From: Elmis aenea
Lineage: Eukaryota > Arthropoda > Insecta > Coleoptera > Elmidae
Direction: 5' to 3'
Length of the DNA stretch: 64,000 nt
Assembly (NCBI GenBank): GCA_947652605.1
Contig: CANTFG010000303.1
Coordinates: 1-64,000, forward strand
The position numbers and the translations under genes were made by a program. Position 1 is the stretch's first letter. Each line of letters begins with the position of its first letter. This document shows, in pieces, positions 8,260-61,897 of this stretch. The notes under the pieces were generated by a model. The model searched no databases, was not told where the DNA came from, and saw only the letters and a program-made list of their open reading frames with translations.

Positions 8260-8263
8260 CTTC

Positions 8264-9214: not shown

Positions 9215-9252
9215 TAAATCGTATTAACCTCACGATTTTACTAAACGTTTTT

Positions 9253-9265: not shown

Positions 9266-9268
9266 AAA

Positions 9269-9402: not shown

Positions 9403-9414
9403 GTACCTCTATAT

Positions 9415-34495: not shown

Positions 34496-34693
34496 CAGAA
34501 AAAGAAGAAAGTACTAAAGAAAATGGAACTCCTGAAAGCAAAGGTAAAAAGAGGAAAATTAATCAAGGAAAATTGGTAGAGAATTCCACAAAAATTTATT
34601 TAACAGAAATAGACGATTCGGACGGCTCGGCGCCAGGTGGAGACGATCATTTTCACATTCCATCTATAGAAAGTCCGATATCTGACGAAAACC

Positions 34694-37600: not shown

Positions 37601-37855
37601 GTGATTACAAACGAGTACCTATTTAAAATAAAATTAAGTACAACAGATATGTGTAGCAACTGCAACAACGTCATCGACACCATTTTCCATAGGCAACGAT
37701 GTTTTTTGGGCCTTAGAAAAATGTGGAGCTATTGCTCAGCTTTAAGTAAAAAAATATGCAACAAAAGTTTAACAAGTGAAGAAGCAATATTTCCTGGCTT
37801 CATGTTTAAAAACGAAAAGGCTAACAATGCCATAATCTGGATAATTTTTCATTAA
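34694..37855 (+). pseudogene. LINE ORF2: APE endonuclease, reverse transcriptase, zinc-finger tail
   Basis: APE at 34694-35437: TINICGINTPTRL, LLLQEVTVENL (catalytic Glu), INIYAPSGTQNR, LLGGDFNCVLS, SRLDRIYI and FSDHCAYIL (final His). A stop separates the linker (35456-35659). RT at 35641-36891: SPGPDGLPKEFYF, RPISLLNYDYKLFMKI, VSIDFDHVFDRI (first Asp), SVRQGCPLSMILFIICMEPL and SCAYADDVSLLL (Y-A-D-D). The tail at 36992-37855 has CSNCNNVIDTIFHRQRC, a zf-RVT-like motif. The RQGCPLS and YADD signatures point to the L1/Tx1 side of LINEs rather than Jockey. Three or four breaks. Confidence 0.85.
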
Positions 37856-39247: not shown

Positions 39248-39325
39248 ATGCGGCAGTTACTTATACTTTCGTTTGTTATTTTGTTGTCTATAAATTGTGC
39301 ATGGAGTGGAATAGTTACAAATATA
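39248..39325 (+). CDS. Galectin-like gene exon 1: signal peptide
   Basis: ATG opens 26 codons beginning [20 protein letters not shown]: a basic n-region, a hydrophobic core, and a cleavage site probably after NCAWS. It ends at a consensus donor (ATA|GTAAGT), phase 0, matching exon 2. Splicing directly to exon 2 is inferred. Confidence 0.65.
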
Positions 39326-42300
39326 GTAAGTACACAGCTTTTACAAAAATAAAGTTTACGGGTCTGTTGTCTTTTACAACTGTTAATGGTGCGCCAAATA
39401 GAAAGGTTTTCTGAAATTAGATTGGATTCTTTAATACGACAGGAAGCTAAAATCTATTTTAAGAATACAAAATTTCTCGTGCTTCAGATGTTGTAGCAAA
39501 AAATATGTAAATGTCGAATTTCTTTTTTCTCTCATAACTTTTTTGTCATAACATCATTTTTATTAATACTTTCTTAGATACTTTTTAATGTAGAATGTAA
39601 CTGTTATTTTGGATTGTTTTAAATCAATTTCCATTTTCGAGATATTACCTAGCCCTCTTTTCATGTTTTCTTATGAACCGTGAAGTTGGCTTAAGAATAG
39701 TATAATTTGCCTTTTTTTCTCTTTCTAATGAGATGCCACTTGTCATTTTTATTTTCATAAATAACTCAGAAAATCAAACAAAATCGTATTTTACACTTAT
39801 CACGCTGTCCATGAAAAAAGTAACAAAAAAACAACTAATTAACTGTCAAATAAGTCACCAATTGTCTGCGGCGTCATTTATTAGCATTTTAAATTATTGT
39901 TGTGTAATTCGATAGTTTTTTTGGTAAATTTGTTATCATATAATTATGGCTAGCTACATTCACAACTAATGAAAAATTTGACATGTTGAGATGCTACATT
40001 CTTTGTCATAGGAGCTGTGTAGAAATAGACAATTCTTATTCTTCATTAATCTGTTTTGGATTTTTGATTGGTTTCTCGAAGGAACTATTTTCTTTAAATT
40101 TATTTATAAACTGCTGTAATTACGTGTACTTCGTTACCTTCTCTCGGAATACAGCTCTAAGTACGTTCGTTCAGCTTCTACACAGTTTCTATGGCAAAGA
40201 ATGTAGCATCTCAACATGTCAAATTCTGTATTAGTTGTAAATGTAGCCGTAATTATACAGGGTTGCGCAAAAGTATGGAAACAAACAAATATCTAGAACA
40301 CTATTGCAAATATAACAATGAAATTTTGTATAATAATAATAATAATAATCTTTATTTGTTCTGAAAATCCCAAAAAAGGTGTAGAACTTGTCACAATAAT
40401 AATTTACGTACATTACAAATAACATACATAGTTAATAAAATGGAAAAAAACACAGAAAAATTATATTTATAAAGTCAGCATCATTCAAATATTCGCTTAC
40501 TCCATAGTAAGCTTTAGAAATCAGAACTTTTCTTAATTTCTTCTTCAATTCGCGGGTGGGAAGATTTATTATACTCTCAGGTGATGTGTTAAATTTATTA
40601 TATATAGCAATAATTGTGGAGGCAACATTTTTTTGAAGATAGGTATATTTGAAACAATCGGGTTTTAGGTTTTTTTTATGTCGCGTATTGGCTGCATGAT
40701 TTCTTATATTCTCTTCGAACAGATTTACATTATTTTTAACGAAAAGGATGGCTTCGAGGATAAATAGACTGTAAAACGTTAATATTTCGTTGTCACAAAA
40801 AGTTTCTTTGCAGTGATCTCGGTAGTTAAGGCCAAATATATTTCTTATACATCGCTTTTGTATAATAAAGAGGCGTTCTGAGTCACTAGCGTTACCCCAA
40901 AAAATTACAGCATAGCGTAACCTAGATTCGACATATGCATGATATGCAGTTTTGGCCGCGTTTGCATTGACCAATTTTTTTAGGTTTTTTAGTGCAAAAG
41001 GGTACCGTGACAGGCTTTGTGACAGGTGTTCGATGTGGCATGACCAGTCCAGTCTAGAGTCAATACATAAACCAAGAAAAGATATTTTATTAAACTACAT
41101 TTATACTTGTGGAATTATTTTGAAATTTTAAGTCGGAGGTTATTTTACTTTGTGAAAATTTTATAACTTGCGTTTTATTGACGTTTAAGGTTAGATTATT
41201 TAACGTAAACCAACGCTGGAGTTGGCCTAAACAGTCAAAGAGTTTTTGTTCGGAGTTTTTGGAATCCGAGTCACTAATAATAGCAGATGTGTCATCGGCA
41301 AATTATATAAGGGAAGTTTTGACAAAATCTGGAAGATCATTTGTGTACAGTATGTATAAGATTGATCCTTGCGGGACTCCTTTTTTGTTTTTGTTTTTGT
41401 TGGATTTTAGAAATTTACCTGACGAGTCTTTTCCGGCAACGTATTGGTTTCTTTCCGAAATATAAGATGTTATAAGGTTATGGGCGGTCCCTCGTATACC
41501 ATAGTGTTCTAATTTCGTTAGTAGTATCTCGTGGTCAACACTATCGAAGGCTTTTGAGAGATCAACGCCCATGACCATGGTTTGTCTTTATTGAGGGATT
41601 GAAGTACATTTCGGATTGCCATGTAAATAGCGCGGGTAGTTGTCTTGCCTTTTCTGAATCCATTTTGAGCGTTGTTTATTATGCAATAGTGTTCTAAGTA
41701 ATTTTCAAATCTGTTGTAGATTATTTTTTCAAATATCTTGCTGATGTTTGTGAGTATGGCTATGGGCCTATAGTTTCCTATGTCACTTACATCCCCCTTT
41801 TTGTGGATTGGTTTGATTTTTGCACATTTTAGTTTGTTTGGAAATATGCCATTTCTTAAAGAAGGGTTTATGATGTGACTCAAAGGTCCAGATATTATGT
41901 CGGCAGTATGTTTTAAGAGGTTTGTTGGTATTTCATCCTCTCCTGTTGATTTTGTGTTTTTAAGTGACATTATAGTTTTATAGATTTCCTCGTAAGAAGT
42001 AGGACGTAGATAGATAGACCTATTATTATGTTTAAAGTGGCTGGTTTCAGAAATTGACCCATGTGTATTGTCGGGGCACATATTTATAAATAGTTCATTT
42101 ACATTGTTTAGTATGTCTAATGGGTTGTCGCCTGTATTTTTGACATTGTTGATAAAATTGTCTTCTTTTTGCCTTTTTTCCATACAGTTGCCTATAACTT
42201 TCCATGTCGCTTTACTTTTGTTTTTTGCCGTTTTAATGTATTTTTCGTCCGCGAGTCGTTTTGCAAGACGGATGGTACATTTTAATATTTTTGAGTATAT

Positions 42301-45300
42301 TTTAAAGTATTCCTCGGATATTCGACCTTCCCTGTAATCTACATATAGTTGTCGTTTGTTAGAACAGGATGTTTTGACGCCAGTAGTGATCCAGTTTCTG
42401 TGAATTGGCCTTTGTTTTATGGTTTTTGGTTTGAAAATAATGTCAAAGAATTCTTTATATATTTTTAAGAAAATTTCATAAGCCGAGTTTACGTCCGATG
42501 ATAGGTATACTTCATCCCAATTACGGTTTGCAAGGTTTGCTCTAAATTCTTCTAGTTTATTGTGTGAGAAGATCCTTGCGGTTAGATTTTTAGGGGTGTC
42601 GTCCTTGTGATGAACTTTTCCAATCTTTACTTCAACTGACTGGCCGTAGTGATCAGACAGTGCTGTTTGGATAACTTTCCCACAGCTTTTAGGGTCTGTG
42701 TCGCAAAAGTTTTTGATGAAAATGCAGTCAATGAGAGATTTTGATTGTTTGGTAACCCGGGTTGCTTCAAATATTGTTTGTTCATAATTTTGACTGTGGA
42801 GTATGTCGAGAAACAGTTTACTATTTTTATTTTTATTTAGCAAGCAAATGTTGAAATCACCTGTGAGTATAATTTTATATTCTGAGAAAGTAACGAAGCT
42901 TTCTTCTAGAATTTTTTCAAGACAATTGAAGAAAATATCAAGAGAGCCTAAATTGGTTCGATAAATACAGACAATAATAATTTTGAAAGACATGTTTATG
43001 ATACAAGAGCACTCGAATTGACCTTCAATATTGTAAGGTGAAAGATTTTCTAATTCTCTAAAGTCATTTAGATCACTGAGAACGAATATACATGTTCCTC
43101 CGTGTTGCATGGTCGATCTTGCATAGTAGGATACTAATGTATATCCTGGGATGTTGAGGCACTGTAGTTCATCAGATGAGCACCAGTGTTCACTTAAGGC
43201 TAGTATATGTGGTTTTAAGTTCATTGTGTTTAGTGTCAACTCAAGTTCTAAAGTTTTGTTTCGTAAACATTGAATATTGTGATGGAAAACGTGGAGAGTG
43301 TCATTGTTTTTTTGTTTGTTTTGCATGGGTGACCGATTCTTGCTCCTTAGTGGGGCACGTCATTGAGTTTAAAAATTTCGACTAGGCGGATTGCAGTAGC
43401 TTCGTTGAGTTTCTCTGCATTTTTTGCAAAAATGCTATTCTTTCTGATGTGATGTATGATCTGTAGGCGGCTAGATCATCGGCTACTTCGTTTTGGCTAA
43501 TACCATAGGCGGTGTGGAAATCGTTGTACAGCTTTTTTAACGATGGCAGGTCCACCGGTAGACCTTCAGAGGCTAGATATAATTTAATGCTAGTACTTGT
43601 GAAACCATCGTAGCAGACGGTGTTTGATTGGTCAGATAAATACGCTAGGTATATTCTGATGGCATTCTTGATGAGCGGTTCCCTAAGTCTAGCTAGGAGA
43701 GTACGACCAAAAGTGGACTGAGCTTCTTGCGTTAATCTTAATATATGTTATGGTATTTTTCGGATTCGATGAAAATATTAAGGTTGCAATACGACTTCCG
43801 GTTCTACCTGAAACGGACTCAAACTTTGAAATTTTAAATAGAACACCCTGTATATTATTGCATTTTTGGATTCCTCCTAAAATTTACTTTAAAAAATTTA
43901 AAAGGTTATATGGGTCCAAAGTTTTCGAAAAATTTACATTTTTATGAAAATTTTGAGCGATACAGCAATTCCAATTTTTTTTACATTTAAGTTATTTAAA
44001 AAGGTAGTAGAATTTCGTTTGAAAATTAGATTAGCAATTAATTATTTAACAATTTGCACTAGCTACATTACTAAAATATTATACAGGGTCTTTTATTACC
44101 CTTGGTCAAACTTGTGAAACTTTAAACATCGATAACTCAATTTTTTTAAATACAACATCCTATTTGCTTTTAGGTACATAGTCTTGTTAAAAATTTGATT
44201 CTTTAAAAAACATTCACCATGTTTCATACCTTAAACTAATATTTTTCGAGATATCGCGATTTTATTGTAAATTATTAGGGCAACGTAATTTTTCAAGTGG
44301 GCTATGAAGTTAGACAGCGGTAATCTTTAAACAATTGATAGATAATTACGCATTTATTCATTGTACCAGTGTATTAGGACAATTACTAAATCCGATAAAC
44401 TATTGTTTGTGTTTCTACAGTTCGATTATCTGTTGAACGGGAAACGGTTTCAACACTAATCGTTTTTTTTTTTGAATTTAAAGATAAGATGGTCAGTGAG
44501 TTTTGTTTAATACGCGTTTTTTTCACGTACTCAATAAATTATCAAACGATTTTCAGGACTGTGCAAACGATCAAAATCAATTTCATTAAAAATATTGTGG
44601 CCCTGATAAGAAACCTCGATATAAACGTAAGATTGGCAAAATTACATCTAGATTATAAAAAACTTCAACAATTCAAAAGGAAAAGATAAGTGAGGAAAGT
44701 CAATATTATAACTTTGTTGTTTTTATCTTTAATTGTTTAAAAATTACCGCTTTCTACATTGATAGCCTACTCGACAATATTACATTGCCCGGATAATTTA
44801 CAATAAATTCGCGATAACTCGAAAAATATCAGTTTTAGATATGAAACATGGTGAATGTTTTTGAAAGATAATCAAATTTTCAACAAGACTATGAACCTAA
44901 AAACAAATAGGATGTTGTATTTAAAAAAAATCGAGTTATCGATGTTTAAAGTTTCACAAGTTTGACCAAGCGTAAAAAACACCCTGTATAATATTTTGGT
45001 AATGTAGCTAGTGCAAAGTGTTAAATAATCTGTTGTCAATCTAATTTTCAAAGGAAATTCTACTGCCTTTTTAAATAACTTAAATGTTAGAAAAAATTAA
45101 AAGTGCTGTTATCGCTCAAAATTTTCATAAAAATGTAAATTTTACGAAAACGCTTAACTTAAGACCCACATAACCTCATACAATTTTTAAAGTATATTTT
45201 AAGAGGAATCCAAAAATGTAATTATATACAGGGTGTTCCATTTAAAATTTTAAAGTTTGAGTTCGTTTCTGGTACAACCGGAAGTCGTATTGCAACCTTA

Positions 45301-48300
45301 ATATTTTCATTGAATCCGAAAAATACCATAACGCTCATATACAAAATTTCATTGTTATATCTGCAATAGTGTGTTCTATATTTGTCTGTTTCCATATTTT
45401 GCGCATCCCTGTATAATGACAAATTTGCTACAAAGACTATCGAATTACACAACAATACTATAAAATTAGAATAAATGATACCAAAGACAAATATGGTAAC
45501 TATCATTTGACAGTTAATAAGCTGTTTTTTGTTTCTTTTTTCATAGATAGCTTGATAAGTGATGGGCAAAATACGATTGCGTTTAATTTTCTGAGTTATT
45601 TATAAAAATGAATATAGCAAATGGCATCTCATTAGATTAAGAGAAAATGAAATTAGGAGTGATATCTCCAAAATGGAAAGTAATAAAAAACATCTAAAAT
45701 AATAATTATATTCTACATAAAAAAGTATCTCAAGATTGTACAAATAAAATTCATGTAATGATTAAAACAAAAAAGTTATGAGAGAAAAACGAAATTTACC
45801 ATTTTCATATTTTATGCTATAACTTCTGAAGTACGAGGAATGATGTTCTTAAAAATTGGTTGTAGCTTCTCTCATACTTAAGAATAATTCATCTAATTTA
45901 AGCAAACCTGTATCTCTTATAATAAGCAAGATCCCCATGCTGGAAATGTTATCTGAGACACCCTGTACACTGTACAGGGTGGACCAAATTCGAATGTTGT
46001 TCGGCAGTGATGTCCAACCTTTTTTAGGCTAGGGTCTACTTTAGCTTCTTCAAAACTTTGGCGGGCTACTTAGTCGCAGTCATCCCCCTTTCCCTTCGTG
46101 GCAAAAAAAACAAAATTTAAAAAGTAGGCATTTTGACTTTTGACCAAGAGAAATTTTAATAAATTCATTTTCAATATAATTATTTGTAATTTATGTGATA
46201 CTTGTACTGCATATTTTCTGATAATGTTTTAAAATCTGGTTCGTAAGAAGATATTACTATTTTCAAGCAATCAATGAAATGTTTTTCAGTAAGACCATAT
46301 CTATGTTTGTTTTTGATGATATTATGCTGCGAAAATGCCATTTCGCAGAGGTATAAGGCAGCGAAAAATGAGTTTACCTTTTTCGCACATATGATAAGAT
46401 TCTGAAATATGAAGGGGTCTGTTGCCTGACAAAAAAACGTAATTTCCAATAGTTTTTAGTTGGATTTCATTTCATAAAACCATAAACGTACATTTTTGCA
46501 TAAGTGTAGTGATTCGATTGCCTTTAGATCCTAAAAACGTCTATCAAGTACATCTTTGAGCGATTAAAGGTCATCAATGCCTTTGTGGCTATAATTTTGA
46601 TCATTGTCTTCTGTCATCTTTTTTATTGATAAGAAATGTTTGTATATAAAGGTTTATAAATGATAAATCTGTAAGTGCTACTTCTGCTCGCGGGCGGCTT
46701 AACATAGCTTAGCGGGCTATCAGGGGCCCGCGAGCTACCAGTTGGACATCACTGTTTTACGGGGTATCTCGGTTACCGTAATGCGTAATAGATAACGAAC
46801 ATAATAATTTTTTAAAAATATTTCGAGATATGAAGTAAGCTTATATATTTTTAAATGGAAGCCGTAGTTGACCATGACTATATAGGTATGACTAATTTTG
46901 TAAAAATTTTATAATCACAGTTTTCCATGATTTCGTAAACAAGTTATGTTTGCAATTAACAATAACACGTCATATCCAAGTACATTTTTAAACTTCTAAG
47001 TTTGTAAATCCGTATATTGTTTTGTATTTTGTAACTGTTTATTGTGTTATTGTGAACGTAGCTAAATGTGAACACTTTAAAAAGTTTGATAATAAAAGTT
47101 TACATTGTAAGTGCTTAAACGTAGCGGCTGCTGTAGAATTTACTAGGAAATGACGTTCAGTTGTTTATTAATTGCAAACGTCACTTGTTTACGAAATCAT
47201 GGCAAATTTTGATAACGAAATTTATACAAAATGGTTCATATCTCGGTTATTTTTTGCAACACATAAATAAAACTATATATTTTTGAAAAGTTAAAAAAAT
47301 TATCTTTCATATAAAGTAGTGGCCAACTAGGGTTTCTATTTAGGAAAATAAAAGTTTACTACATATCTCAAAAGTCAAGGTGACTAAAAAAAATTACTTT
47401 TGTTTTTAAATTAAGCATAAAAATCTGCATAAAAAAACCTTTGTAATATTTTGTTTCATTTTAATAACTAGAGGAGCTATATACAGTGTGTCCAGAATTC
47501 GAGGCTCACCATGGGTAACTTTTAAACCGTGATAGATACAAGGTCGGTCAAATAGGACAAAAGTGACTTACTTCATAGAGCAATACAGCGATGCTTTCGT
47601 TTTTGAAAAAATAAAATCAAGGATAATTTGATATTGATGAAAAACCAAAAATGTGGCATTTTTTTACATGAATTTATCTCAGTTGCTATGAGATATAGCA
47701 CAAAAAGTTTCTAACAAAAGTGGTAGATATTTTTGAGAGCTATAAAAAGGTGGCAATCAATTTTTTTAATATTGCATATTTTACGAGATACGGCATTAAC
47801 TTGCATTTTTTTTAATGCAACTTATAGTTGATTTTTGTGTCATTCGAGAGCTTATTTTTCTCTCTTTTCAATGATGTGCCTTATGAACTTATGATACATT
47901 TATTTTGAAATTTGACAATTTGTTGTTGTGATAAACATTATAAATATTTGAACATAAGATAAATTACAATAAACTGCATTACTGCAGATTCCGACTTTAT
48001 CGTTGTTTTCTTATTTTCATATATTTATAATATTTATCACAACAACAAATTACAAAACCTTCGTAACTTGTACCAAATGAGTTTTAAAAAGTCTTACACC
48101 TTGTTTTGTTTTTGTTTTCATAGCCTACTATAATTTTCTTTAAAAAAAAATAAAAAACTTTCGCAACTTACATATTATTGAAAATAACTACATCAATCCT
48201 TATAGGTATATTTAGAATGACAAAAAAAAATAAATTTAAATAAGTCTTAGCCAACTATAGGTTCCATTTAAAAAAATACAACTTTGTCACAACTCGAATT

Positions 48301-51300
48301 TAGATTTTGTTTTTGAAAAATTGTCTAGGCCACTGCATTCTTATCAAAAAAGTCCCTGCAGAACGTCAAAATAATTTTTGTTTATTTTCATAAACAAGTG
48401 AGATATGGTCATAAAACGAAAAGTCGAAAAATCAGCCATAACTCGAAAACAAAAGACGATAACCAATTTTAGTTTTCACCATTAACTTTTTCTCAAAAAA
48501 AGAAATCCAGGTTGCGCGGTCCGTTTTTTTGATACCTCTTATAGTTACCGAGATTCCCTATTAAAACATCGAAAGGGTGTTTCTTAAATATTGCGAAAAA
48601 ATTCAGGAGGTGATTCCTTATCGAAAATTTATATAAACTTTTTCCTTAGACGTCTTTTTTCGGGGTTACACCCCCCTATAGGGGAGCGGTAAAATTAGGG
48701 TTTTATTTTATTTCTCAAATTTCGATAAATGTAAGAGAATGATGTTTGCTAGATGTTTTATGCTTATTAAAAAATTTCCCATACTAATATTTTCAATAAT
48801 CTTCCCACCTTCACAGGGGGCTGAAAAGTGCGACCCCTGTTGGTTTTTCATTAGAACTTTTTGGTGGGTTGAAACTTTACAATTAAATATTTTTTTAAGC
48901 TTGATTTATTTGGAAACTTGTTTTATTGTTTAGTTTTTCTCGTGAAACCTACTGTTTATAAGTAAAAAATGATATAAGTAAACATACACTATTAAATTAA
49001 TATTCCAATACATAAGAATTCATTTTGGTGGTTGCCATGGTTTGTTTATGTTCATGTTGGATGGAATTGACGGGTGTAATTCATTTTGACGTTTACGCGG
49101 CGAGAACGCTAAAACGCCCATTAATTCTACCCAATATGAACATAAACAAACCACTTTAACCACCAAAATGAAACGTTTTATATTGGAATATTTAATGGTG
49201 CATGTTCCCTTATTTTATTTTTTACTCACAAACTGTAGGTTTTACGAGAAGAAATAAAAAAAGTTTCTAAATAAATCAAGCTTCAAAAAATAATTAAATT
49301 ACAAAATTCAACCCACCAAAAAGTTCGGATAAAAATCAACAGGGGTCGCATTTTTCAGCCCCCTGTGAAGGTGGGAGATTACTGAAAATATTACTATAGG
49401 AACCCTTTTAATAAGCACAAAACATCTACCTAATATCATTCTCCTACATTTATCGAAATTTGAGAAATAAAATGAAAACCTATTTTACCGCTCCCCTTTA
49501 GGGGGGTGTAACTCCGAAGACGTCTAAGGAAAAAAGTTTATATAAAAGGCCCCCCTTAATTTTCGATAACGAATCACCTCCTGAATTTTTTCGCAATATT
49601 TAAGAAACACCCAGTATAGTAAAATATTCAAGAATACTGAAATTTAATTTTTCGTCTGTCGAGCCAAAATGGAAAGCGACATAAATAATCTGAATACACT
49701 GGCGTTTGTTTCTCCAAAAAATAACCCCAGAGAGAGAGATCGATATCAGATTTTCGCTAACACATTCGAATTTGGTTAATCCTATTTACTGAGGTATACA
49801 TTTACATGAGTTTTTATCCCAATTTTTGTATAACACATCACACAATATAAAAACACATGTTTAATTTACAAAAAAAAACAGACAATATATTATAGCGAAC
49901 AAAATTTAAACTTTAATTACAATTTTTCGTCGACAAATGGAATAATTTTTCGTGCATTTTTTTTTTGTCCATGTTTGTATTGGTTGTTAAATGTAGGTAC
50001 CTATTTTGTCGTTTATATTGTCGTACACTTTCCCATTTTCGTCCTGCTACATTTGTCATTCGATATACTAATATTGTCGTGCCATTCCATTATATATTAA
50101 ATAAACACACTCCCCATGTTGAGCTTCGAATATGGGACACCGTATGTTTACGACATATTGTATATAAATTTGGTTATTTTTAGACACTTCCATATCAGGG
50201 TAATATAGAAGGTAGATTGGAACCAGGAAAAACGATAAAAATTACCGGAAATACAAGTGGCAATTACAGGTAGGTATTAAATTTTTACCGGTGTAGCAGA
50301 GTTGCGCTGCCTAATATCCTAATCGGATTATGCATAGTTGAGCTGGTAAACGTTGACGGGTACAGGTAAAGAGTAGATTTGCCCTAATTACAACACTAAT
50401 ACCAAACTATTTTTAAATATTTATTTTGTAAAGCGTACAATACAAAAATGGCATTATCTATTTACTTAAAATTATATGAAGCACATTTACAAATCAATAT
50501 CGGGATATGGGTTTATTTTTATATTTATACAGGGTGTTTCTTAAATATTGCGAAAAAATTTAGGAGGCGATTCCTTATCAAAAATTAAGGGGGGTCTTTC
50601 ATATAAAATTTTTTCATTAGACGTCTCTTTCTGGAGTTACACCCCCAAAATGGAGCAGTAAAATTAGGTTTTTATTTTATTTCTCAAATTTGGATAAATG
50701 TAAGAGAATGATATTAGGTAGATGTTTTGTACTTATTAAAAGGTTTCCCATAGTAATATTTTTAATCATCTCCCACCTTCACAGGGGGCTGAAAAGTGCG
50801 ACCCTTGGTGGTTTTTTTAACAGAACTTTTTGGTGTGTTGAAATTTTGCAATTAAAAACATTTTGTTTTAAAGCTTGATTTATTTAGAAACTTTTTTTAT
50901 TCTTTAGTTTTTCTCGTAAAACCTAAATTTTAATAAGATAGCGATGTTCAATTGTTTTTTACTCATATCAATACCGATATATTACACCTAACTTTGTAAT
51001 TTTAAATTAAACCTGTCAAAGTTGATCACCATTATTCAGCAATGGGTTCAATGAAGAGAGGGGTACCCCAGGGCTTCGTTTTGGGTCCCCTCCTCTTCCT
51101 TCTATTTATTAATGATTTACCACTCCACATAAAAGAAGGTGAAATCGTGATGTTCGCAGATGACACCTCAATAGTGTTAACAGCCGAATCCGACGGTGAA
51201 CTAACAACAAAAATGAATAAAACCATACAAGACTTTAACGGATGGTGTACAAAAAACAATCTTATCTTAAATACAAAAAAAAACAGTAATTATACAGTTC

Positions 51301-53099
51301 TCAATCAGCAATGTGCCGAAAACACCCTCAACATACATCATTAACGGAAGTAATATCACAACCTCTTAACATACTAAGTTCCTGGGATTAACCCGCCATC
51401 TGCATCGGTCGCGTGGGGCGAATGAACGCCCAGCGATATTAAAAATGCTCAATATTTTTTAAAGTAATAAAAATTAAGATACGCCGCTTCGTCTACCTTC
51501 ATACATCGATAGGCGGCACTTTTTACGCACAACACCCCTCAGTTCGCACTTTGCGTTTGATGCACAGTGGACATTTGTCACACGAAGAGACGTCAATTGA
51601 CCCCACGCGACCGTTTGCGTTTGAAAATTGTTTATGTTTGTGTTTTTGAAAAATGGTTTCTCGACTAGAATTACGTCTATTGAAGTGGTAAGAAGAGGTT
51701 AGTGATGAAGAAAAAATAGTTGGGGTTGAAGAAGACGAGGAGGATGGCGGTGATGAAGAAATAACGCAAAATAACTCACATGATACCGAGCATGATACGG
51801 AGACAGAAGAAGAGTACATTTCGGAACATGAAGATCTGTCTAGTAGTCAGGAAGACATTCCATTATCACAAATTAATTTACTGTAAAAAAAAAATGTGTG
51901 CCCGAGACACAGTAAAATAATTTGTTACAATTGCACTGATAATTTGTAGTGAATTTTGAAGGCTGATTAGATCTACCTAATTTTTTGATATTTGTTTTTA
52001 TTGTTTTTGAGTATAACTTTCTTAATTATTTCTATTATTAAAAAGAGTTTAGTTTTGTTATTTTGAAAAGTTTTTATGTTATGTTTTTCTAAAGAAAGAC
52101 CAAAAACAAAAAATATGTTCCTATTTCAGTTATATACATTTTTAAAGACTTTAATAAAGATATTTTTAGTAAAGTTTATGTTTTATTGTTAAGAACAGCC
52201 TTTTAGACCAAAGCAACTAAAAATAAACATAAATATTTAAAAAATTTGCAATATTTGGATTAAAAGCGTTGACTGACCCCACGCGACCGACAGCGTTACA
52301 AAAATGTAGCGCAACCGATGGCGGGTTAACAGTGGATAAGTCATTGAAATGGGTCAACCACATCGACAATGTTTGCAACATACTCAGCAAATCATTTTTT
52401 GTGCTGTCACAACTAAAACAAATTGTACCATTTGAATCCCTACTAAACACTTACTATGCAACAGTGTACAGTCACCTGCAATATAGTGTTATCCTCTGGG
52501 GTAATGTGTCATATTCTAAGAGACTGTTTGTCATCCAAAAAAGGATTATAAGACTAATGTGCAATCTAAAAAGAAGTGAATCCTGCAGGAACGCATTTAA
52601 ATCAAATAAAATTATGACCCTAACTAATATTTACATTTATCGTATCCTGTTGTGCGTGAAAAATAACATAACGGAATTTAAAGCTAATTCTCACTATCAC
52701 ACCCACCACACCAGACAGTCTAACTCACTTCGCCCGTGGACTCACTCCAAGTCCAAGTTTGATCAATCCCCGCTATATGGGCGCTATATTATTCAACAAA
52801 CTTCCGACACGAGTAAAGAACCTACCATTGAAAAATTTTAAAAAGGAAGTTAGAGAATTGCTGACCAGCAACACCTACTATACCGTCAGTGAATACTTGA
52901 CAGACATTTGTCCACGAGATCATGTATCACTAGGTGTACTGTAATGTCATGTATGTTTCTACTTATGTTTAGCATTTTGCTAATTTTAATATGTTTTTTA
53001 GGATTAGATATCCTGCATTTTACCTTTACAATGTAATATATATTACTTATTTATAATGACGATGTGCATAACATGAATCATGTTCTACCACATAAAGGA

Positions 53100-53157
<58 letters not shown>

Positions 53158-56100
53158 GCACAACCAGCTCTAGAATGTGGTCGGCGTGGATTTATAGGGT
53201 TTTTATTTATTTTCAAGTTTCTTCATCGATTTGTTTGACTCAACCGCACAGAAAAACATACAATTATCATTGAATGCTACCTATGGCATCCCTGTTCAAC
53301 GAAACCACAAAGAAAACAATACATGGGGTCCTATAGAATCTTCTGGTTTCTTTGGTGGAGGTGGTCCGTTCGAAATTGTGATAATTTGTCAGTGGAACCG
53401 TTTTGTTGTAAGTACCCACCACACTGATTTTTAACCTGTGTTCCGCGAGCATCCTCCAGGTGTGTCGCGTAACAAAATAAAAAACATAAATAAATAAACA
53501 GATTTTGCAAGGACGCTGTGTTTGAGATTCGAGTTTTAAACGTGGAGTTCTCGCTTATTATAATAGCTGGGGTGTAGGTTTCAATTTGGCAATTCGGTAC
53601 TAATTAATAACCCGATGAGAAATTGAAAATATTTTAAATGCTATCCGAGAAAATGAGGATAATCCGGAAAACACGATTTTTTAAAATAGTAAAATGAAAT
53701 ATTTTAAATGTACCTATAGCAAGAAATGGCTTGCAAAATTTCCAGTTTGTTGACATAAACTACAACTACTACTGCCTAATTTATATTGGTTGTTGTCTAA
53801 AACGTAATTTTACAAATTTGTCATTGAATGTAAAAGTAAAATACCATGTGTCATACATCAACGAAATCAGAAAAAAAACTCATTTGGCTTATGCATATGG
53901 CAATAAGAATACGAATAAGAAAAAATTAGTGTTTACCATCCGATTCGGCTTAAAAAATTGCTTGCCAATGTTTTTACACATTTTAAATATTTCATACTCC
54001 AAAGGAGATGCACACGATTTTTTTAAATCGTGTTTTCCAGTATTTCCTAATTTTCTCGAATGCCGTTTGATTTCTCTTTGGATTATGGATGAGCACCAAA
54101 TTTAGCAACTTTACCAAATGAAAACCTATGCTTTAGCTGTGACAATAAGTGATATTCCCATGTTTAAAACTCGAATTTCAAACACCCGGTATGGTTCAGT
54201 TTGACTGTCTCACCCCTATCTCTTTTTTTTTTTTTTTGCAAATCGTGGAAAATTTTCTATCGAATGTCGTTTAAATGTTTTTTTTACGATGAAATATGTC
54301 AGACCTATTAGGGTCAACTTTGCTTTTTGAAATTACATGGTATTGTTTTACTTTCGCCATATACGTACTTTAGTCTCAAGAAAGTATTGACCGCGAAAAT
54401 TTTCGAATTTTTAATTTATATACAGCGTTATTCAAAAAGTCTGCAACAAATGGGAAAAAGTTTTATTTTTGATTTCTCAGAAAATTTTATTCTTGATAAA
54501 GGTTGGTGCATGGTCTAAAATCAATTTTAAGATGAAAAAAAGTTCGATAAAAAGTCATAGGACACTAGATTTTAGCGATTTTTGAAATATTTGCTAGAGT
54601 AAAATGTACTTATTTTAAGAGATACAAAAAAATTTTATAGGAAAAAGTTATTTACAATCTCAAAATAAGGCTAGATTTAAATTTTGAAGTTCAAATTCCA
54701 ATTTTTATTTTTTAAGAAATTTCATCATTTAAAAAGTCTGCAACAAATGGAAAAGTTTTTTATTATCGATTTTTCAGAAAATTTTATTCTTGATAAAAGT
54801 TGGTGCATGGTCTAAAACAAATTTTAAGATAAACAAAAAAGTCATATGAAACTAGATTTTAACGATTTTTGAAATATACCCAATAGTAAAGTGCTTAAAA
54901 TTTCTTAAAAAAATAAAAATTGGAATTTGATCATCTAAGTTTAAATCGAGCCTTATTTTGAAATTCTAAATAACTTTTTTTCATAAAATGTTTTTGTTCT
55001 CTTAAAATAAGGGCACTTTACTCTTGCGAATATTTCAAAAACGCTAAAATCTAGTGTCATATGACTTTTTATGAATTTTTTTTTTATCTTAAAATTAGTT
55101 TTAGACCATGCACCAACTTTTATCGAGAATAAAATTTTTTGATAAATCAATAATAAAAAGTTTTTCCATTTGTTGCAGACTTTTTGAATGACGCTGTATA
55201 TACACGTTTTGAGATCCCCTGAACCCGTTTTGACTATATTCGCAATCTCCGTGTGTGTGAATGCTGGCGGGTGAGCGTGTAAGGGTGTGTGTGTGTATGT
55301 GACAGACGTTAAAATTGTACATTTTTGACATTGCTTATCGACAGAGCCTTTAAAAGTATGTTTGAAAAAGCGTGCATTTATTTGATTTTTCAAATATTAA
55401 CTAATATACAGGGTGTTTTGTATAAGCTGTAACGTTAATAGGAAATTACATAAAAACCGTAATGGATAATAATATTCTGTTGATGTAGGATTGTAGTCTA
55501 TGTCGAGTTTTACCAAAAAAAAACGCAATATTCAAAATTATTAAAAAAATTCAAAATTTTGAAGATTTATTTCGAAAACGGCTGCAACAAGTTTTTTCAA
55601 ACTTTAGTATATTATAGAGTTTATTTTTCTTAGTAAATTGCCGTTTGTCTCATCTCTTTTGAATTTCCTTGAAAAAAGTTATGATTAAATAAAAAATATA
55701 GGTACATAATATAGATTATAGAGTATATTTTTTAAGAACGCTGTGGTTGTTCGAATGACATAAACTGGCGCATGAAACGTCATTTGACAGAGGTCATTAC
55801 GTCATGTTGACAGACGTCATTTACAAAAGGAAAGTTGATTAGAACGCTTGAAGCGGCATTTTAAACCCACAAATACACAAACAAACTCGAAGATACACAC
55901 AACACACAATATACGAGTAGTTATGGCGAAAAAGATTTGGTAACCACACCAGTTTATTTTTTATTGATTCTGACAAAGAATTTAATTTTAAATCCGATAG
56001 TGCATTAAAAAAATTGGCATACAAAGGAACATTTTTAAGAAAAATGAGTTTAAAAGTTATTTAGGAGTATTATTTTTCAAAATATCATATATATCGAAAC

Positions 56101-59100
56101 AAAACACGATCGCTGTAGTAATTGACAATTTATAACTTATCTAATTGTGTTTTATTATTCTTCGACGAAAAATCATTATTTTGTGAGTATTAAATTGAAA
56201 ATGGATCTTCTATTAATTTGCTTCTGTTAGTGCGTGTTCAAGACGTTTTAATTTAATGCTCACAAAATAAAAATTTTTCGTCGAAAAATAATTAAACACA
56301 ATAATTAGACAAATTATCAATTACTACAGCGATCGTGTTTTGTTTAGATATATACGATTTTTTGAAAAATAATACTAATAAATAACTTTTAAACTCATTT
56401 TTCTCAAAAATGTTTCTTTGTAAGCCAATTTTTTTAATGCACTATCGGATTTAGAATTTAATTCTTTGTCAGAATCAATAAAAAAAAAACATGTAAATTT
56501 AAAAAAAAGTGATTATCGCCAGTCTGACATATTTCAACGTAAAAAAAAAACATTTGAACGTCATTCGATAAAGAGTTTTCCACGATTTCCAAGAATATAA
56601 GGTTTATAGGGGTTTCCTCTTAAAATAACAAAGTTATATAGGTGCGACAGTCAAACTAAATCATCCTGTATAGTGTGCGGCAGAATTTTAGCGTTGTTAA
56701 AAGCAGGGCTGTGGAGTCGGAGTTTAGGAGGAATTTCTGGTCAGTGGAGTCGGAGTCGGAAAAAATTTATCGACTCCGACTCCGAGTACAACAAAAAATT
56801 ACGAGGTGGTCCTTTGCCGCAAAATTAAACTCAAATTTTAAATTATATTTTTATTTTTATTTTTTTTTATGTATTACACACCATAAAATGTCTTAGTATT
56901 TAATTTTGTCGGAGTCGGAGTCAGAGTCGACCTACTAAAATTATCAGGATTCGGAGTCGGAGTCGAATTTTTTTTACAGACTCCGCAGCCCTGGTTAAAT
57001 GTGTGCCGCGACTTTGAAAAGTTGAAGAACATTGACCTACTATCTATATCCAGGGGTGGGCAAGTTTTTCCTGCAAAAGGTCGGATAAAAATTAATTAAG
57101 ATGACTCGGGCCGGAACAAAAATTTAGATGTGAGGGGTGTTAAAAGTTTTTTGCCAAGCCGCACATTTTTGTAGACCGTAAAAAATCTGAAAATAACATG
57201 AAATTCGCCAAATTAATTAAAATTCGAAAAAATATTGCATGCAGCATTTCGGATTGGATGCTGTTGCGGACCGACATCTGCCCAATCCTAACCTACAGAG
57301 TATTCACCTAGTGCAGTGATGTACAAGCGGTAGCTCCCGGGCTCCAGGTAGTCCGCAAGTCTATATCAAGACACACGCGAGCAGAAGTTGCGCTTATAGA
57401 TTTCTCATTTAAAAAGCTTCAAATGCGAACATTCCTCATCTATAAAAAAGATGGCAGAGGACAATGACAGAAATTATCAACTACAACACATTGATGAACT
57501 TCAATTGCTTAACTATGGGATTTGGTAGCTGTTTCCACGGTCCAAAGGGAATCGAACCACTATTATTATTTTTGGCATTTTGACATAAATACTACACCTA
57601 TGCAAAAATGTACTACAAAAGATCATCTACAACAAAAAAAAATGGAGGAACTATCTAAACAAACAATAAGAAAGAAGAGAATTACGACAAGACAAATACA
57701 ATGAAAAATTAGATAAAGTCAAGTTGGCAGTGAGGGAAGCGAAGGAAAAATCATGGATAAAGTTTGGGCAAAACATGAAAGAGAATTTTAATGAGAATAA
57801 AATTTTTTTCTATTGCACGTTTAAGCAACTAAGATAGAAAAAAGAATACGGAATGAAAAACATAAAAGATAAAAATGGAAAAATAATTACGAATGAGAAA
57901 AAATAATGGAAAGGTGAAGACAATACTTTAAAGAGCTAGCGCAGATAGATGAAATATACAAAAAATACGAAGTAACAAATATAAAATGCAACAGAGTTTG
58001 TCGAGAGATAACGAAGATTATAATGGAGGAATTAGAAAAAGCTATGGAAAATTTAAAGATAAGAAAAGCAGTATCTAAAGATAGTATTATACCGAAAATG
58101 ATTAAATACATGGAAGAATTAGAGAAAGAAGCACTAATGGTGCTACTGAACGAGGTAGTTAGATCAAGAAAAGTACCAAGGGACTGGAACACTAGAATTA
58201 TCTTATCACTATACAAAAAAGGAGAAAAGAGGGATAGTTCCAACTATAGGGGAATAACATAATTGAGTGTACCTGGAAAAATACTGGCAAGAGTAATGGA
58301 AGGTAGACTAAAAGAAAAAAACACACACTAGAAGAATCCCAATATGGTTTTAGAGAAGAGGACGGAGTACACAAGACCCAGTTTTTATACTAAGTAAAAA
58401 AAATTAAAAGAGCCTAACCAAAAAAAAAGAAATACATTTATGTTTAATAGACTTGGCAAAAGCATTCGATAGAATAAAAAAAACGTATGGAGGACGTCAT
58501 AAAAGCGAAGTACGAAAAAACGGTAAATATTGTAAGAACACAAAATGAAGAATCGGAAGAGTTTGAAACAAAAGCGGTCTTAAAACAAAGATACGTGCTC
58601 AGTCCATTACTATTCGCAGTCGTTATAGATGGGGGTAATTAAAGAAGTAAAACAAAAAATGAGAACATTTGACCTAGGTAACTGCAAAATGGAAAAAAAA
58701 TTAGCTAATATTTGCACACGACATAGTCATAGTCGCGGAAACAAAAAAGAATCTACAACATAATCTAGAAATAATCAGTATTAAAGTAAACACAGATAAA
58801 ACTAAAACTGTGATCGTTAGTTACAACAGAGAACAAAGGGCATAGCATCAATTTAGGTGGGTTTAGGTTGGAATTGGTAGATAGCTTTAAATATTTAGGA
58901 GTGATGATAGAAAAAATGAAAAATAGCGAAAAAGCAGGAAATGTGGGACAAATATATAACAGTTTAAAAACAACATTTTTTGGCCCCAAAACGAACAAAA
59001 GTGGAAGTGGTCAAAAAAGTTGTAACTCCAGCACTTTTATACGGAAGTAAAACGTAGATACTCACAAACAAAGATAGAAATAGAATTAAAAATTGAACAT

Positions 59101-60470
59101 ATATAGAGAACAATTAAAGATGAAATCAGGTGGAACAAAAATACAAGAAAGACAGCTGGGATAGTTGGGTCACATTTATAGGATGGAAGAAGAAAGGTTA
59201 ACCAGAAAAGCATATGAAGCAAGATCACTGGGAAAAAACAAAAGAGGTAGACTGAGAAAAACTTGGCAAGACGAAGTCAAAAAGGCAGCAATAGATAAAA
59301 ACACCAAATGGGAAGAGATAAAACATCTAGCATAAGACAGAAAAAGATGAATAAAAGTAAGCACAACACAACTCAACAGTCCTACACATGACAAGTGACT
59401 AAGGCCCAATTGCACCACCCTTCCTTAAATGTGTCACTTTAGTAAGTGACACTTATATTAAGGTGTCACTTAAATTATGGAAACATTGCACCACCCAAAC
59501 TTAGCAAAAAGGCTTTATACATGTGGCAACACAGCAAAACTATACTGAGTAAGGTCACGTTGACTTGTCAAATACCGAAATTTTTTGAAAACTTAGCTAA
59601 TATTATTTTAATAAACGTTTTATGATTATCAGAACTTCAATTTATTTGATAGGAACATAAAGCAAAACGAATTTCACAAATAAAAAAAGGCTTACTCATT
59701 CAAGTAATCACAGGACAACTGTCAGTTTTTTAAGGGTTAAATGACACTTTAAGCGGCAGAATTCTATCGCTTAAATTTAAGGTACACTTTAGAGATAAGC
59801 AACACCTGTGCAATACAGTAAGCTTCAATTTACGATTTAAGTAACACCACAACTAGGCCTAAATAAAATAACAAAATTAATTAGAAGTTAAAAATACTTT
59901 TTCCTACCTTTAACCTGTCCCTTATTCACTACCTATATTTCACGAATTAAGCAAAAAGCCAATTTCGCGAACTGGGCAAATTCTCTAATTCTGCATAACT
60001 GGAAAGTATCTATTTAGTTTTCTTTTATTCGATATCTTTGTCAAAAATTTCGCAGCTACAAACATTCAGAGTTCGGAGATGAACAGTAATATTGCAGTTT
60101 AGGTCCGTGATTATAAGTTATTTTACAAATATGTATTAACAATAACACTACTTCTGTTTTCCAGATATGGATAAATGGCCAATGGACAAGCGATTTTGAA
60201 CATAGGTTACCTTTCTCTGATATTCAATATATAAAAATATACGAACCAAAAATTGATAATCATACTGTAATCAGTCAGATTTCCTACAACACCACTTTCA
60301 TAAATGAAAACAATATTACAAATCCGGTATAAATCAATTAATTAGTGTGTTTAACGTGTTACTCAATGTAATTTGTTTTAGTATTTTCTGTATCACGGTG
60401 CACTTCCTGGCGGAAACATATATAATAAAATAATAAAAATTAAGGGTATTGTTCCTACTGACACCAGAAT
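39248..60470 (+). CDS. Secreted galectin-like gene with TE-filled introns (partial, continues beyond window)
   Basis: Five exons join in phase: 39248-39325, 50184-50269, 53218-53407, 60165-60326, 60382-60470. Exon 1 encodes a signal peptide. Exons 2-4 form one complete galectin carbohydrate-recognition domain: [19 protein letters not shown], then [40 protein letters not shown]. Exon 5 starts a second domain with [19 protein letters not shown]. The phase at the end of exon 5 (2) equals that of exon 2, as expected of duplicated domains. Introns are 10,858, 2,948, 6,757 and 55 bp, and all use GT-AG. The next exon is not seen in the window. Classical galectins lack signal peptides, so this is a divergent secreted form. 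Intron order and motif positions make chance unlikely. Confidence 0.82.
39941..40256. mobile_element. 316-bp MITE with about 75-bp TIRs
   Basis: TAGCTACATTCACAACTA and GACATGTTGAGATGCTACAT at left are mirrored by ATGTAGCATCTCAACATGTC and TAGTTGTAAATGTAGCCGTA at right. It interrupts the left arm of the outer palindrome, since the right arm lacks it. No ORF. Confidence 0.7.
40331..40349 (-). repeat. (TAA)n 3' tail of the minus-strand LINE
   Basis: Six TAA units at the 3' end of the element (ATT repeats in sense orientation), the microsatellite-type tail used instead of poly(A). Confidence 0.85.
40432..43326 (-). pseudogene. LINE ORF2: endonuclease and reverse transcriptase with several breaks
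   Basis: The APE starts [13 protein letters not shown] and includes [11 protein letters not shown] (catalytic Glu), [21 protein letters not shown] and [11 protein letters not shown]. The RT has [48 protein letters not shown], then after a frameshift [20 protein letters not shown] (first Asp). KGVPQGSIL is followed by a small deletion, then a stop and [11 protein letters not shown]. The thumb (40432-40974) contains [20 protein letters not shown]. At least one frameshift (about 41550), one in-frame TAA just before FADD and one further break make it inactive. Confidence 0.88.
43385..43735 (-). pseudogene. LINE ORF1 C-terminal fragment
   Basis: The minus-strand frame upstream of ORF2 contains [18 protein letters not shown] and [20 protein letters not shown]. 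It ends shortly before ORF2. It is 5'-truncated with the element. The content is not a recognised domain and is assigned by position. Confidence 0.5.
46005..46754 (-). mobile_element. hAT element relic (750 bp)
   Basis: CAGTGATGTCCAAC and GTTGGACATCACTG termini. Flanking octamers TTGTTCGG and TTTTACGG match at six of eight positions, an aged duplication. The interior retains the end of a transposase gene on the minus strand. Another fragment of the same family is at 57317-57480. Confidence 0.8.
46180..46500 (-). pseudogene. hAT transposase C-terminal dimerisation region
   Basis: The minus-strand frame includes [38 protein letters not shown] and [15 protein letters not shown]. This is the hallmark end of animal hAT transposases (SCAND3/GTF2IRD2-like group), where CExxFSxMNIIKxKxRxxLTDxHL is followed by SSYxPDFxxL. 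The catalytic part is deleted. Confidence 0.75.
47484..48575. repeat. Degraded foldback sequence including the 47925-48070 hairpin
   Basis: The start ATACAGTGTGTCCAGAATTC, with AGATACAAGGTCGGTCAAAT, resembles the ends at 12056 and 61137. AATTTGTTGTTGTGATAAAC (47928) and GTTTATCACAACAACAAATT (about 48028) form the hairpin also present at 5737-5862. No gene. Confidence 0.5.
48579..49617. repeat. 1.04-kb palindrome (foldback element)
   Basis: GGGTGTTTCTTAAATATTGC with GAAAAAATTCAGGAGGTGAT at left is mirrored by ATCACCTCCTGAATTTTTTC at right. Arms of about 500 bp meet near 49090, with a CATGTTGGATGG...CCCAATATGAACATAAAC centre. A single arm of the same family is at 50530-50935. Both lie in galectin introns. 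Confidence 0.85.
49618..50183. other. Intron 1 end, no repeat recognised
   Basis: AT-rich sequence up to the exon 2 acceptor (GGTTATTTTTAG). Nothing else recognised. Confidence 0.35.
50184..50269 (+). CDS. Galectin-like gene exon 2: first strands of CRD1
   Basis: After acceptor TATTTTTAG the phase-0 frame reads [20 protein letters not shown] and then TGNTSGNY. This is the PxxGxxxxxLxPGxxIxIxG opening of galectin domains. Ends AATTACAG|GTAGGT, phase 2. Confidence 0.85.
50530..50935 (+). repeat. Single arm of the 48579-49617 palindrome family
   Basis: TACAGGGTGTTTCTTAAATA, GACGTCTCTTTCTGGAGTTA, CACAGGGGGCTGAAAAGTGC and TTTTCTCGTAAAACCT follow the same order as the left arm at 48579-48950. Confidence 0.8.
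51392..52325. mobile_element. piggyBac-derived non-autonomous element
   Basis: CCCGCCATCTGCATCGGTCG at left is mirrored by the CAACCGATGGCGGG end at right, with TTAA on both sides (51388-51391, 52326-52329). A second inverted pair, GGTCGCGTGGGG and CCCCACGCGACC, lies inside. Subtracting it restores the LINE frame around FLGLT exactly. Contains the truncated acidic ORF below. Confidence 0.95.
51660..51885 (+). pseudogene. Acidic N-terminus of a piggyBac transposase (truncated)
   Basis: The plus-strand reading [15 protein letters not shown] then [18 protein letters not shown], followed by [20 protein letters not shown] and [17 protein letters not shown], is a highly acidic segment. piggyBac transposases start with such a region before the DDE domain. 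The DDE domain is missing. Identification is by context. Confidence 0.5.
53100..53157 (+). repeat. (ATT)n microsatellite tail
   Basis: About 19 uninterrupted ATT units forming the 3' tail of the LINE. Confidence 0.95.
53218..53407 (+). CDS. Galectin-like gene exon 3: core of CRD1
   Basis: After acceptor TTTATTTTCAAG one base completes the split codon, then [39 protein letters not shown] and [18 protein letters not shown]. It matches the central galectin strands. W (of WG), the N of SLN and the N of RN are kept, but the expected His and Arg of HxNPR and the Glu and Arg of WGxExR are replaced. Donor GTT|GTAAGT, phase 0. Confidence 0.85.
53518..54193. repeat. 0.68-kb palindrome
   Basis: GTGTTTGAGATTCGAGTTTT and TTATTATAATAGCTG at left are mirrored by AAAACTCGAATTTCAAACAC and CAGCTGTGACAATAA-like words at right. 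GAAAACACGATTTTTTAAAA pairs with a segment near 54015. Centre near 53855. The plus-strand ORF within it is not a gene. Confidence 0.7.
54418..55203. repeat. Palindrome of the ACAGCGT(C/T)ATTCAAAAAGTC family
   Basis: Same termini and unit words (AAAAGTCTGCAACAAATGG, GTTGGTGCATGGTCTAAAA, AGTCATAGGACACTAG) as 12455-14815: two units on the left arm, one inverted on the right. Confidence 0.8.
55954..56492. repeat. 0.54-kb palindrome
   Basis: TTGATTCTGACAAAGAATTT, CGATAGTGCATTAAAAAAAT and ACGATCGCTGTAGTAATTGA at left are mirrored by TCAATTACTACAGCGATCGT and AAATTCTTTGTCAGAATCAA-type words at right. Centre near 56220. Confidence 0.8.
56704..56993. mobile_element. hAT MITE with GGAGTC-word termini
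   Basis: CAGGGCTGTGGAGTCGGAGT and ACTCCGCAGCCCTG ends, flanked by GTTAAAAG and GTTAAATG (7 of 8). Subterminal GTCGGA words are inverted about an AT-rich core. No ORF. Confidence 0.9.
57055..57300. repeat. Degraded hAT-like fragment
   Basis: CAGGGGTGGGCAAGTTTTTC at about 57053 is a typical hAT end. A weak counterpart (ACATCTGCCCAATCCTA) occurs near 57278. No convincing duplication. Confidence 0.4.
57317..57485 (+). repeat. 5' fragment of the 46005-46754 hAT family
   Basis: CAGTGATGTACAAGCGGTAG, GCGAGCAGAAGTTGCGCTTA and AAAAAGATGGCAGAGGACAA follow the reverse complement of 46600-46754 in order. Confidence 0.75.
57600..59400 (+). pseudogene. RTE-like LINE relic (reverse transcriptase, many breaks)
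   Basis: Best part 58023-58262: [40 protein letters not shown] and SSNYRGIT, a typical RTE/BovB-side RT start. Later pieces in shifting frames include [36 protein letters not shown] (first Asp region) and [12 protein letters not shown]. The tail [16 protein letters not shown] is the common C-terminal motif. About ten frameshifts or stops show it is old. No duplication seen. Confidence 0.75.
59403..59859. mobile_element. PIF/Harbinger-type MITE (TAA duplication)
   Basis: GGCCCAATTGCACCACC at left and AACACCACAACTAGGCC at right, with TAA on both sides (59400-59402, 59860-59862). Internal GTGTCACTT words repeat. A 3-bp TAA target with GG-starting TIRs fits PIF/Harbinger. No ORF. Confidence 0.65.
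59863..60164. other. Intron 3 end, no repeat recognised
   Basis: AT-rich, ending in a good acceptor (CTTCTGTTTTCCAG). Confidence 0.35.
60165..60326 (+). CDS. Galectin-like gene exon 4: last strands of CRD1
   Basis: The phase-0 frame reads [20 protein letters not shown] and then [11 protein letters not shown]. This is the galectin VNGxxxxxFxHRxP...IxxLxIxGD ending. A 20-residue linker follows, then donor CCG|GTATAA, phase 0. Confidence 0.85.
60382..60470 (+). CDS. Galectin-like gene exon 5: start of CRD2
   Basis: After acceptor ATTTGTTTTAG the frame reads [20 protein letters not shown] and KGIVPTDTR: the canonical LPGGxxxxxxIxIxGxV galectin start. Donor AAT|GTACGT, phase 2, the same as exon 2. 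The 55-bp intron 4 is one of the few not invaded by transposons. Confidence 0.82.
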
Positions 60471-60586
60471 GTACGTATTATTATCACCATATCTTAATAT
60501 TTTTTTTACCTTAGGGTATCAATCTTTAGTGGATTAATGAGACTTTAATGCTAATGCAGTACTGTGTACCTATCTACAGGGTGTCC

Positions 60587-61140
60587 CAGCCAAGACGAAT
60601 TATTCGATAGCTCTGTTATAAAGAATAATTTTTGACTTTTTTTTGGACAAAAGTTATTTGTAATCGTTTACTACATAACCTAAACTATTTTCAACTATAC
60701 AGTGTTTTGTTTTTGCGCACCGACACAAAACATTGTTTTTTTTTTTAAATAAAACTACCTGTACATTTCATAATTTTTAGATGTAAATATAATTTTTCTT
60801 TCAAAAATATTTAAGGTTACTTATGTCTAAAATGAACCGTTTTTAAGTTATTAACGTTTTTTTGAAAATTTTGATAGATGCAGACACTCGGTCCATTTCG
60901 CTAAACTTTAAACGCATTAAGTCATTTTTTTTTAAATGGAACACGCTATATATTTTTACATCTTCTTGTAGAACATTTAATTAACTTCCAAAGTTATTAA
61001 GCATGTTTTATATCTAAACATAATATTTTTGGAGTTATTTCGTTTTTTTTTATGATTAATTGCGAGTATTTTACCTAAAATATCGGTAGTAACCTTTGAA
61101 AATTCAAAACAAATTGTATGAACTGTCAACGTATACAGGG
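60587..61140. repeat. TACAGGGTGTCCC foldback remnants
   Basis: CTACAGGGTGTCCCAGCC at 60585 and several internal ends (AACTATACAGTGTTTTG, AATGGAACACGCTATATAT) show joined arms of a degraded family. No gene. Confidence 0.5.
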
Positions 61141-61897
61141 TGTCCCAGTTAACTTGAACAGCATGGGGATCTCGTAAACGGTAAGAGATACAGAGTTGGT
61201 TAAATGGGTGAGAATGATCTATGATTTAAGAGCAACTATTCCATGAAAAAAAAATCTCAAAAAAATTTTACAGTTTTTGCGCTATTCGTAAAAAACAAAA
61301 AAATGACGTTTTAGATTTTTGCTTATAACTTGCTTATTTAAAATCGTGCCCAAAATATTTTTCGACATTATTAGGACACTTTTTTGCGTAGAATTGAAAT
61401 TAGTTAATAAATGTTATATATCTTCATTTGTTTCAGTTATTTTAAATACGAGTCGTAGTTGGCTATGACACCATTAAAAAGAGATTTTTTTCTCGTTACA
61501 TTGGTGTATGGGTTGTTGGGTTTATTTTTAAAAATAAGCAAGTTATAGCAATATTATTGTATTTGTTAAGTTTAATCAAAGTGGCCATTGGAAAACAAAA
61601 CAAAACATCACATAAATAAACTAGCTGTACTTAATTAAACACAAAAAAACCTAAATAATTTAAGATATTTTTCAAATTATATAATAATTTATGATTTTTC
61701 AATAACTGTTACTATTGACTCTAAATTATAACATGCGTTTAATGTGTAGCTCACTCTCCACGTGCAATACAAATTTGAGATCTGCACTTAATAGATAATG
61801 TTTTCCTAAGCATATTTCTTTTTATTTGATAAACTTTTGTTAAACTAGCCAATCTTAATTTTGTAATTGTGTTTAACTGTCTTTTTATAATAAGCTG
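61132..61897. repeat. Foldback end and AT-rich spacer
   Basis: TATACAGGGTGTCCCAGTTA, with CAGCATGGGGATCTCGTAAA and AAGAGATACAG, matches the ends at 12056 and 45972. The remainder to 61897 holds no visible galectin exon. Confidence 0.5.

Follow-up and report, generated by a model that had tools for sequence, protein, structure and literature searches.

A putative five-exon insect gene for a divergent galectin-domain protein with a probable signal peptide and a probable second domain

Five tiny exons, scattered over approximately 21 kb of the plus strand of a 64-kb stretch of DNA (hereafter, the window), join into what looks like a real, divergent insect galectin-domain gene. The interpretation that we favor, and consider reasonably likely to be correct, is that of an intact insect gene with transposon-filled introns, whose product carries galectin-type domains in tandem and is secreted by the classical route.

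Gene Structure

A preliminary description of this window had assigned five small exons to the gene, and all of them are recovered here on the plus strand, with cumulative phases of 0, 2, 0, 0 and 2 and with GT..AG termini for every intron. Exon 1 (39248–39325, 78 nt, ending in phase 0) starts with Met and encodes 26 residues of a probable signal peptide; exon 2 (50184–50269, 86 nt, phase 0 to 2) encodes the first strands of the first domain, CRD1, and matches the Pfam family PF00337; exon 3 (53218–53407, 190 nt, phase 2 to 0) is the large middle exon of CRD1 and includes the ligand-site region; exon 4 (60165–60326, 162 nt, phase 0 to 0) completes CRD1 and adds a short linker; and exon 5 (60382–60470, 89 nt, phase 0 to 2) probably encodes the first strands of a second domain, CRD2. 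The four introns, of 10,858, 2,948, 6,757 and 55 nt, make up 97.15% of the 21,223-nt gene span, the exons accounting for 605 nt, in line with the original estimate of more than 97% intron.

When splice sites were scored with general consensus weights, the donors of exons 1 (ATA/GTAAGT), 2, 3 and 5 fell among the best 3.7, 0.09, 3.3 and 4.6% of GT sites, respectively, and the acceptors of exons 2 to 5 among the best 22.6, 14.1, 1.0 and 14.0% of AG sites. Exon 4 has a weak donor, which reaches only the best 17.7% of GT sites. Among the 6 AGs in 53159–53252, the acceptor at 53218 alone provides the length class and phase required for exon 3. The joined exons comprise 201 codons with zero stops, which would occur by chance with P about 2e-6 at the window stop frequency of 6.4% per codon; together with the intact splice dinucleotides and phases, this open frame rules out an obvious pseudogene.

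The First Galectin Domain

The profile search that the preliminary description had proposed as a check gave a clear answer: the joined translation matches Gal-bind_lectin (PF00337) with E 1.6e-19 and 70.1 bits, above the curated cut-off of 22.1, and is a member of the family by this score, with protein residues 29–144 aligned to positions 1–122 of the 132 in the profile. Searched singly, the peptides of exons 2, 3 and 4 match profile positions 1–23 (E 0.19), 28–94 (E 3.8e-4) and 97–123 (E 3.1e-4), i.e., successive segments, in order and without overlap; the peptides of exon 1 and exon 5 alone have no Pfam match. Because exons 2–4 each match consecutive parts of the profile separately, the galectin match is independent of the proposed joins and is not an artefact of them, and chance is not a reasonable explanation for three profile pieces that follow one another in the right order on a single strand within 10 kb. 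In a PDB search at E up to 1, the joined protein matched 145 sequences, among them galectin-8 (E 7.3e-18); the best 60 of these 145 are galectins or galectin-related chains, with one exception, a viral fibre protein that includes a galectin domain. One full galectin domain had been predicted, and exons 2–4 indeed encode a complete galectin-type CRD.

CRD1 is encoded by three exons with a long middle one, which, in the alignment to galectins, terminates in the strand that precedes the NG turn and which, under the strand naming that we assume here, is of the S3-F4 type. This three-exon pattern agrees with the one described, and the S3-F4 exon type is found in scallop galectins, according to the part of PMC10343441 that deals with galectin gene structure. 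Searches of 5.8 billion proteins, which included insect proteins and depended on shared 5-residue words, yielded no homologue at E 10 or better, either of the joined protein (105 candidates) or of residues 30–133 (2 candidates).

Exon 5, Intron 4 and the End of the Gene

A tandem-repeat galectin contains two CRDs in one chain, and the preliminary description had taken exon 5 for the start of the second. The features of this exon fit: it shares the phases of exon 2 and is nearly equal to it in length (89 vs 86 nt). It was ranked among 543 open AG..GT segments of 77–101 nt in phase 0 to 2, which come from both strands and overlap in some cases. Its rank is 2/543 against the exon 2 reference (shuffle P 0.014) and 2/543 against the start of the galectin-8 N domain (shuffle P 0.00065), in both cases second to exon 2 itself, and 14/543 against the start of the galectin-8 C domain (shuffle P 0.11). 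Exon 5 alone, however, has no PDB match, just as it has none in Pfam. We conclude that exon 5 probably opens CRD2. The remainder of this domain was not found in the window: the recommended search for downstream CRD2 exons, which combined tblastn using CRD1 with visual inspection, recognised no CRD2 middle exon in 60471–64000, where the 15 plus-strand open pieces with a length of at least 40 aa were inspected by eye without a profile. Among the 40 matches listed from tblastn of the joined protein against the window, none was an additional galectin piece.

Intron 4 (60327–60381, plus strand, 55 nt) begins with the weak donor CCG/GTATAA, and its retention would add an in-frame V followed by a stop, so that the frame closes as NPV-stop through the GTA TAA directly after exon 4. 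Given this in-frame stop and the AATAAA motifs at 60424 and 60432, the possibility of a product with one CRD has to be taken seriously. Exon 4 might be the last coding exon, with the stop just past 60326 and exon 5 as 3' UTR, or the gene might be of a mixed form in which the product has one CRD or two, depending on whether intron 4 is retained. The position of the stop, the weakness of the exon 4 donor, the AATAAA motifs and the lack of a Pfam or PDB match for exon 5 alone are all in keeping with this; but exon 5 has the phases and nearly the length of exon 2 and ranks 2/543 against both exon 2 and the galectin-8 N start, and both AATAAA motifs are situated within exon 5, in a window rich in A and T. 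We regard a gene of this kind as unlikely, with a one-CRD form arising through intron 4 retention being possible. Under the preferred tandem-domain interpretation, CRD2 would provide a second binding site.

Signal Peptide and Sequons

The peptide encoded by exon 1 carries a basic residue close to its start and a hydrophobic core whose best 10 residues have a mean hydropathy of 3.42 in a home-made heuristic scan. Signal peptides are cleaved according to the -3/-1 rule, and a likely cleavage site that agrees with it is predicted after AWS (residue 20). The cut-offs of the scan were set after exon 1 had been seen, and its counts are to be read accordingly. With a donor score of at least 1.7 and a core of 2.0, exon 1 is the sole candidate on the plus strand, and the minus strand has 2 candidates over the same 64 kb; raising the core to at least 3.0 leaves exon 1 as the single candidate on either strand, at donor cuts of both 1.7 and 0. 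A first-order Markov background yields 0.43 candidates per 64-kb strand, or 0.13 with the core at 3.0, so that about 0.07 would be expected in the 10.9 kb of intron 1, and the minus strand at core 2.0 implies about 0.34. At looser cuts, real sequence exceeds the model: a donor cut of -1.6 returns 5 plus-strand and 7 minus-strand candidates vs 1.45 per strand in the Markov background.

Residues 21–172 contain 8 N-X-S/T sequons vs 2.41 expected from shuffles (SD 1.37; P 0.0006). This enrichment, counted in the mature part of the protein, fits secretion and is independent of exon 1. Galectins in the strict sense are devoid of a signal peptide and are secreted unconventionally; the heuristic signal peptide and the sequon excess point against this trait here. 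The signal peptide claimed at the outset is considered probable, its join to exon 2 being plausible rather than proven, and the galectin-domain protein is probably secreted.

The competing possibility is that the gene encodes a leaderless galectin of the ordinary kind. Its real first exon would then be a short one elsewhere that ends in phase 0, and the open reading frame at 39248 would be a chance or foreign one. The 10.9 kb between exon 1 and exon 2 would be compatible with such a gene, as would the 0.34 chance signal exons per 10.9 kb implied by the minus-strand candidates (0.07 under the Markov model) and the galectins of fig wasps and rotifers, which are leaderless as far as the relevant sections of PMC8702095 and PMC8878817 describe them. 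Against it count the uniqueness of exon 1 on both strands at a core of 3.0 or more and the sequon excess, and in our judgement it is rather improbable. On the preferred interpretation of a classically secreted protein, the sequence suggests a signal-peptide exon in front, a second CRD behind and passage through the ER, and some of the eight predicted sequons would be N-glycosylated along this route.

The Ligand Site of CRD1

The galectin-1 contacts with beta-galactosides, which we take to be H44, N46, R48, V59, N61, W68, E71 and R73, correspond by alignment to S72, N74, T76, Q82, N84, W91, I94 and S96 of CRD1, such that three of the eight canonical galactose contacts are kept and five are changed. 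Conserved beta-galactoside contact residues are a hallmark of galectins in the strict sense, and CRD1 does not show them; because only 3/8 contacts remain, it is best classed as a galectin-domain protein rather than as a proven beta-galactoside-binding galectin. Since five of the eight contacts are lost, CRD1 would be expected to bind a ligand other than simple beta-galactosides or to act merely as a scaffold.

One of the retained contacts, N74 (equivalent to galectin-1 N46), sits within the predicted sequon N-A-T. A more elaborate scheme can be built on this position, in which the pocket asparagine has turned into a glycosylation site and CRD1 is capped by its own glycan, becoming a scaffold or a ligand for other lectins within a heavily N-glycosylated, classically secreted tandem protein, with intron 4 retention switching between one-CRD and two-CRD secreted forms. 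We consider this scheme speculative and quite unlikely as a whole.

Transposons in and around the Gene

Nearly all of the recognisable intron sequence had been characterised as transposon. This characterisation is less firm: by hand annotation of open reading frames and repeats, 29% of the intron bases are transposable elements or repeats, so that most of the intron sequence is unclassified. The intronic elements include a LINE piece at 41518–43359 (minus strand), with a reverse-transcriptase match barely over the cut-off, and another at 51006–51344 (plus strand), also with a reverse-transcriptase match; the intronic open reading frames 40432–41094 and 52233–52841 are LINE-like by eye and have no Pfam family match.

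Outside the gene, plus-strand LINE copies with endonuclease and RVT_1 matches are present at 15804–19043 and 10566–11324. Their segments 10638–10937 and 18357–18656 are 100% identical over 300 nt, which indicates that one copy is recent. The best 120 of 2374 relatives of the reverse transcriptase at 17595–19043 reach identities of up to about 60%, and 14 of them carry organism names, which we read as 13 insects and one MAG named after an insect symbiont. Given that the named relatives of this neighbouring LINE are insects, the genome appears to be that of an insect. No relative of this reverse transcriptase was found in genome_contigs, and neither genome_contigs nor viral_contigs gave a match to a repeat word taken from the window.

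A second LINE lies at 33632–37855 (plus strand; endonuclease 34670–35437, reverse transcriptase 35602–36891), about 1.4 kb upstream of exon 1. The intact 532-codon open frame at 29638–31236 (plus strand), which has no Pfam match, may encode an uncharacterised insect transposase-like protein. What looks like a shortened LTR-type element is located at 5937–9412 on the minus strand, where gag-like (8255–9223) and integrase (6249–6623) frames are flanked by direct repeats of 144 nt with 98% identity. Further repeats are inverted, at 22845–24032 (520-nt arms, 97% complementary) and 13280–14444 (355-nt arms, 93% complementary), or tandem, at 25502–26323 (170-bp unit, 4.9 copies, 95% matches); a unit of ~290 bp forms short arrays in both orientations at 12414–13228, 14495–14812 and 54381–55202, and one of these arrays lies within intron 3 of the galectin gene. 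Scanning the window for Rfam families and for tRNAs gave no hit.

That the gene is a decaying or unexpressed copy that merely looks intact is very unlikely. The transposon-laden introns, the weak exon 4 donor, the worn ligand site and the absence of a relative in the protein searches could be read in this way, but 201 codons free of stops and frameshifts would be preserved with P about 2e-6 if unconstrained, and the splice dinucleotides and phases are preserved throughout.

Comparison with Known Galectins

The preliminary description had called a signal-peptide form with tandem domains unusual. This form is uncommon, although not new: in the relevant passages of the respective reports, three Aedes aegypti galectins (AAEL012135, AAEL005293 and AAEL009842) are among the predicted secreted signal-peptide proteins of the midgut proteome (PMC5865745), a signal peptide is predicted for all three galectins of the sponge Amphimedon (PMC10343441), and insects are reported to have two-CRD galectins (PMC2375007, PMC2675706, PMC8226959), including Tribolium galectin1 (PMC2375007). 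Consistent with rarity, the galectins of 12 fig wasps (PMC8702095) and of six rotifers (PMC8878817) are described there as having no signal peptide. A signal peptide combined with tandem CRDs, numerous sequons and a worn ligand site was not met in those parts of the open-access literature that our search covered, and we make no claim of its absence from print.

The tandem-repeat galectins (galectin-8 and -9, PpGalec, the Bombyx dual-CRD galectin and Tc-galectin1) resemble the present gene in having a galectin domain, which is recognised here by profile and PDB searches, and a second CRD, which is probable here, after a short linker. The present gene differs from them in that five of the eight CRD1 contacts are changed, and may differ from the insect members in its probable signal peptide and its abundance of sequons. 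The Aedes galectins, as described, share the predicted signal peptide (PMC5865745), as do those of Amphimedon, each of which, in the account of PMC10343441, has a single CRD and a single exon. The Anopheles gambiae protein agalectin belongs to the insect galectin family, and no glycan binding was found for it on an array of about 500 glycans; according to the pertinent section of the paper (PMC4160252), it differs from the present gene in having 158 residues and no signal peptide, and it was dropped as a signal-peptide precedent on the strength of that statement. A frog-glue galectin was discarded likewise, the signal peptide being assigned to the glue glycoprotein and not to the galectin in the corresponding part of PMC11237159.

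Implications

Three observations go beyond the preliminary description, namely the excess of sequons in CRD1, the degenerate ligand site and the in-frame stop within intron 4. Under the preferred interpretation, we propose that the protein could have an extracellular role in glycan recognition or cross-linking, in haemolymph, in the gut lumen or in a gland secretion. The case also demonstrates that a small-exon gene is recoverable by phase and profile alone from a span that is 97% intron, a gene that annotation based on long open reading frames would miss. If secretion and glycosylation are true, a galectin domain with a changed ligand site would travel the classical secretory route, and the gene would make it possible to address directly why the majority of galectins bypass the ER and escape glycosylation.
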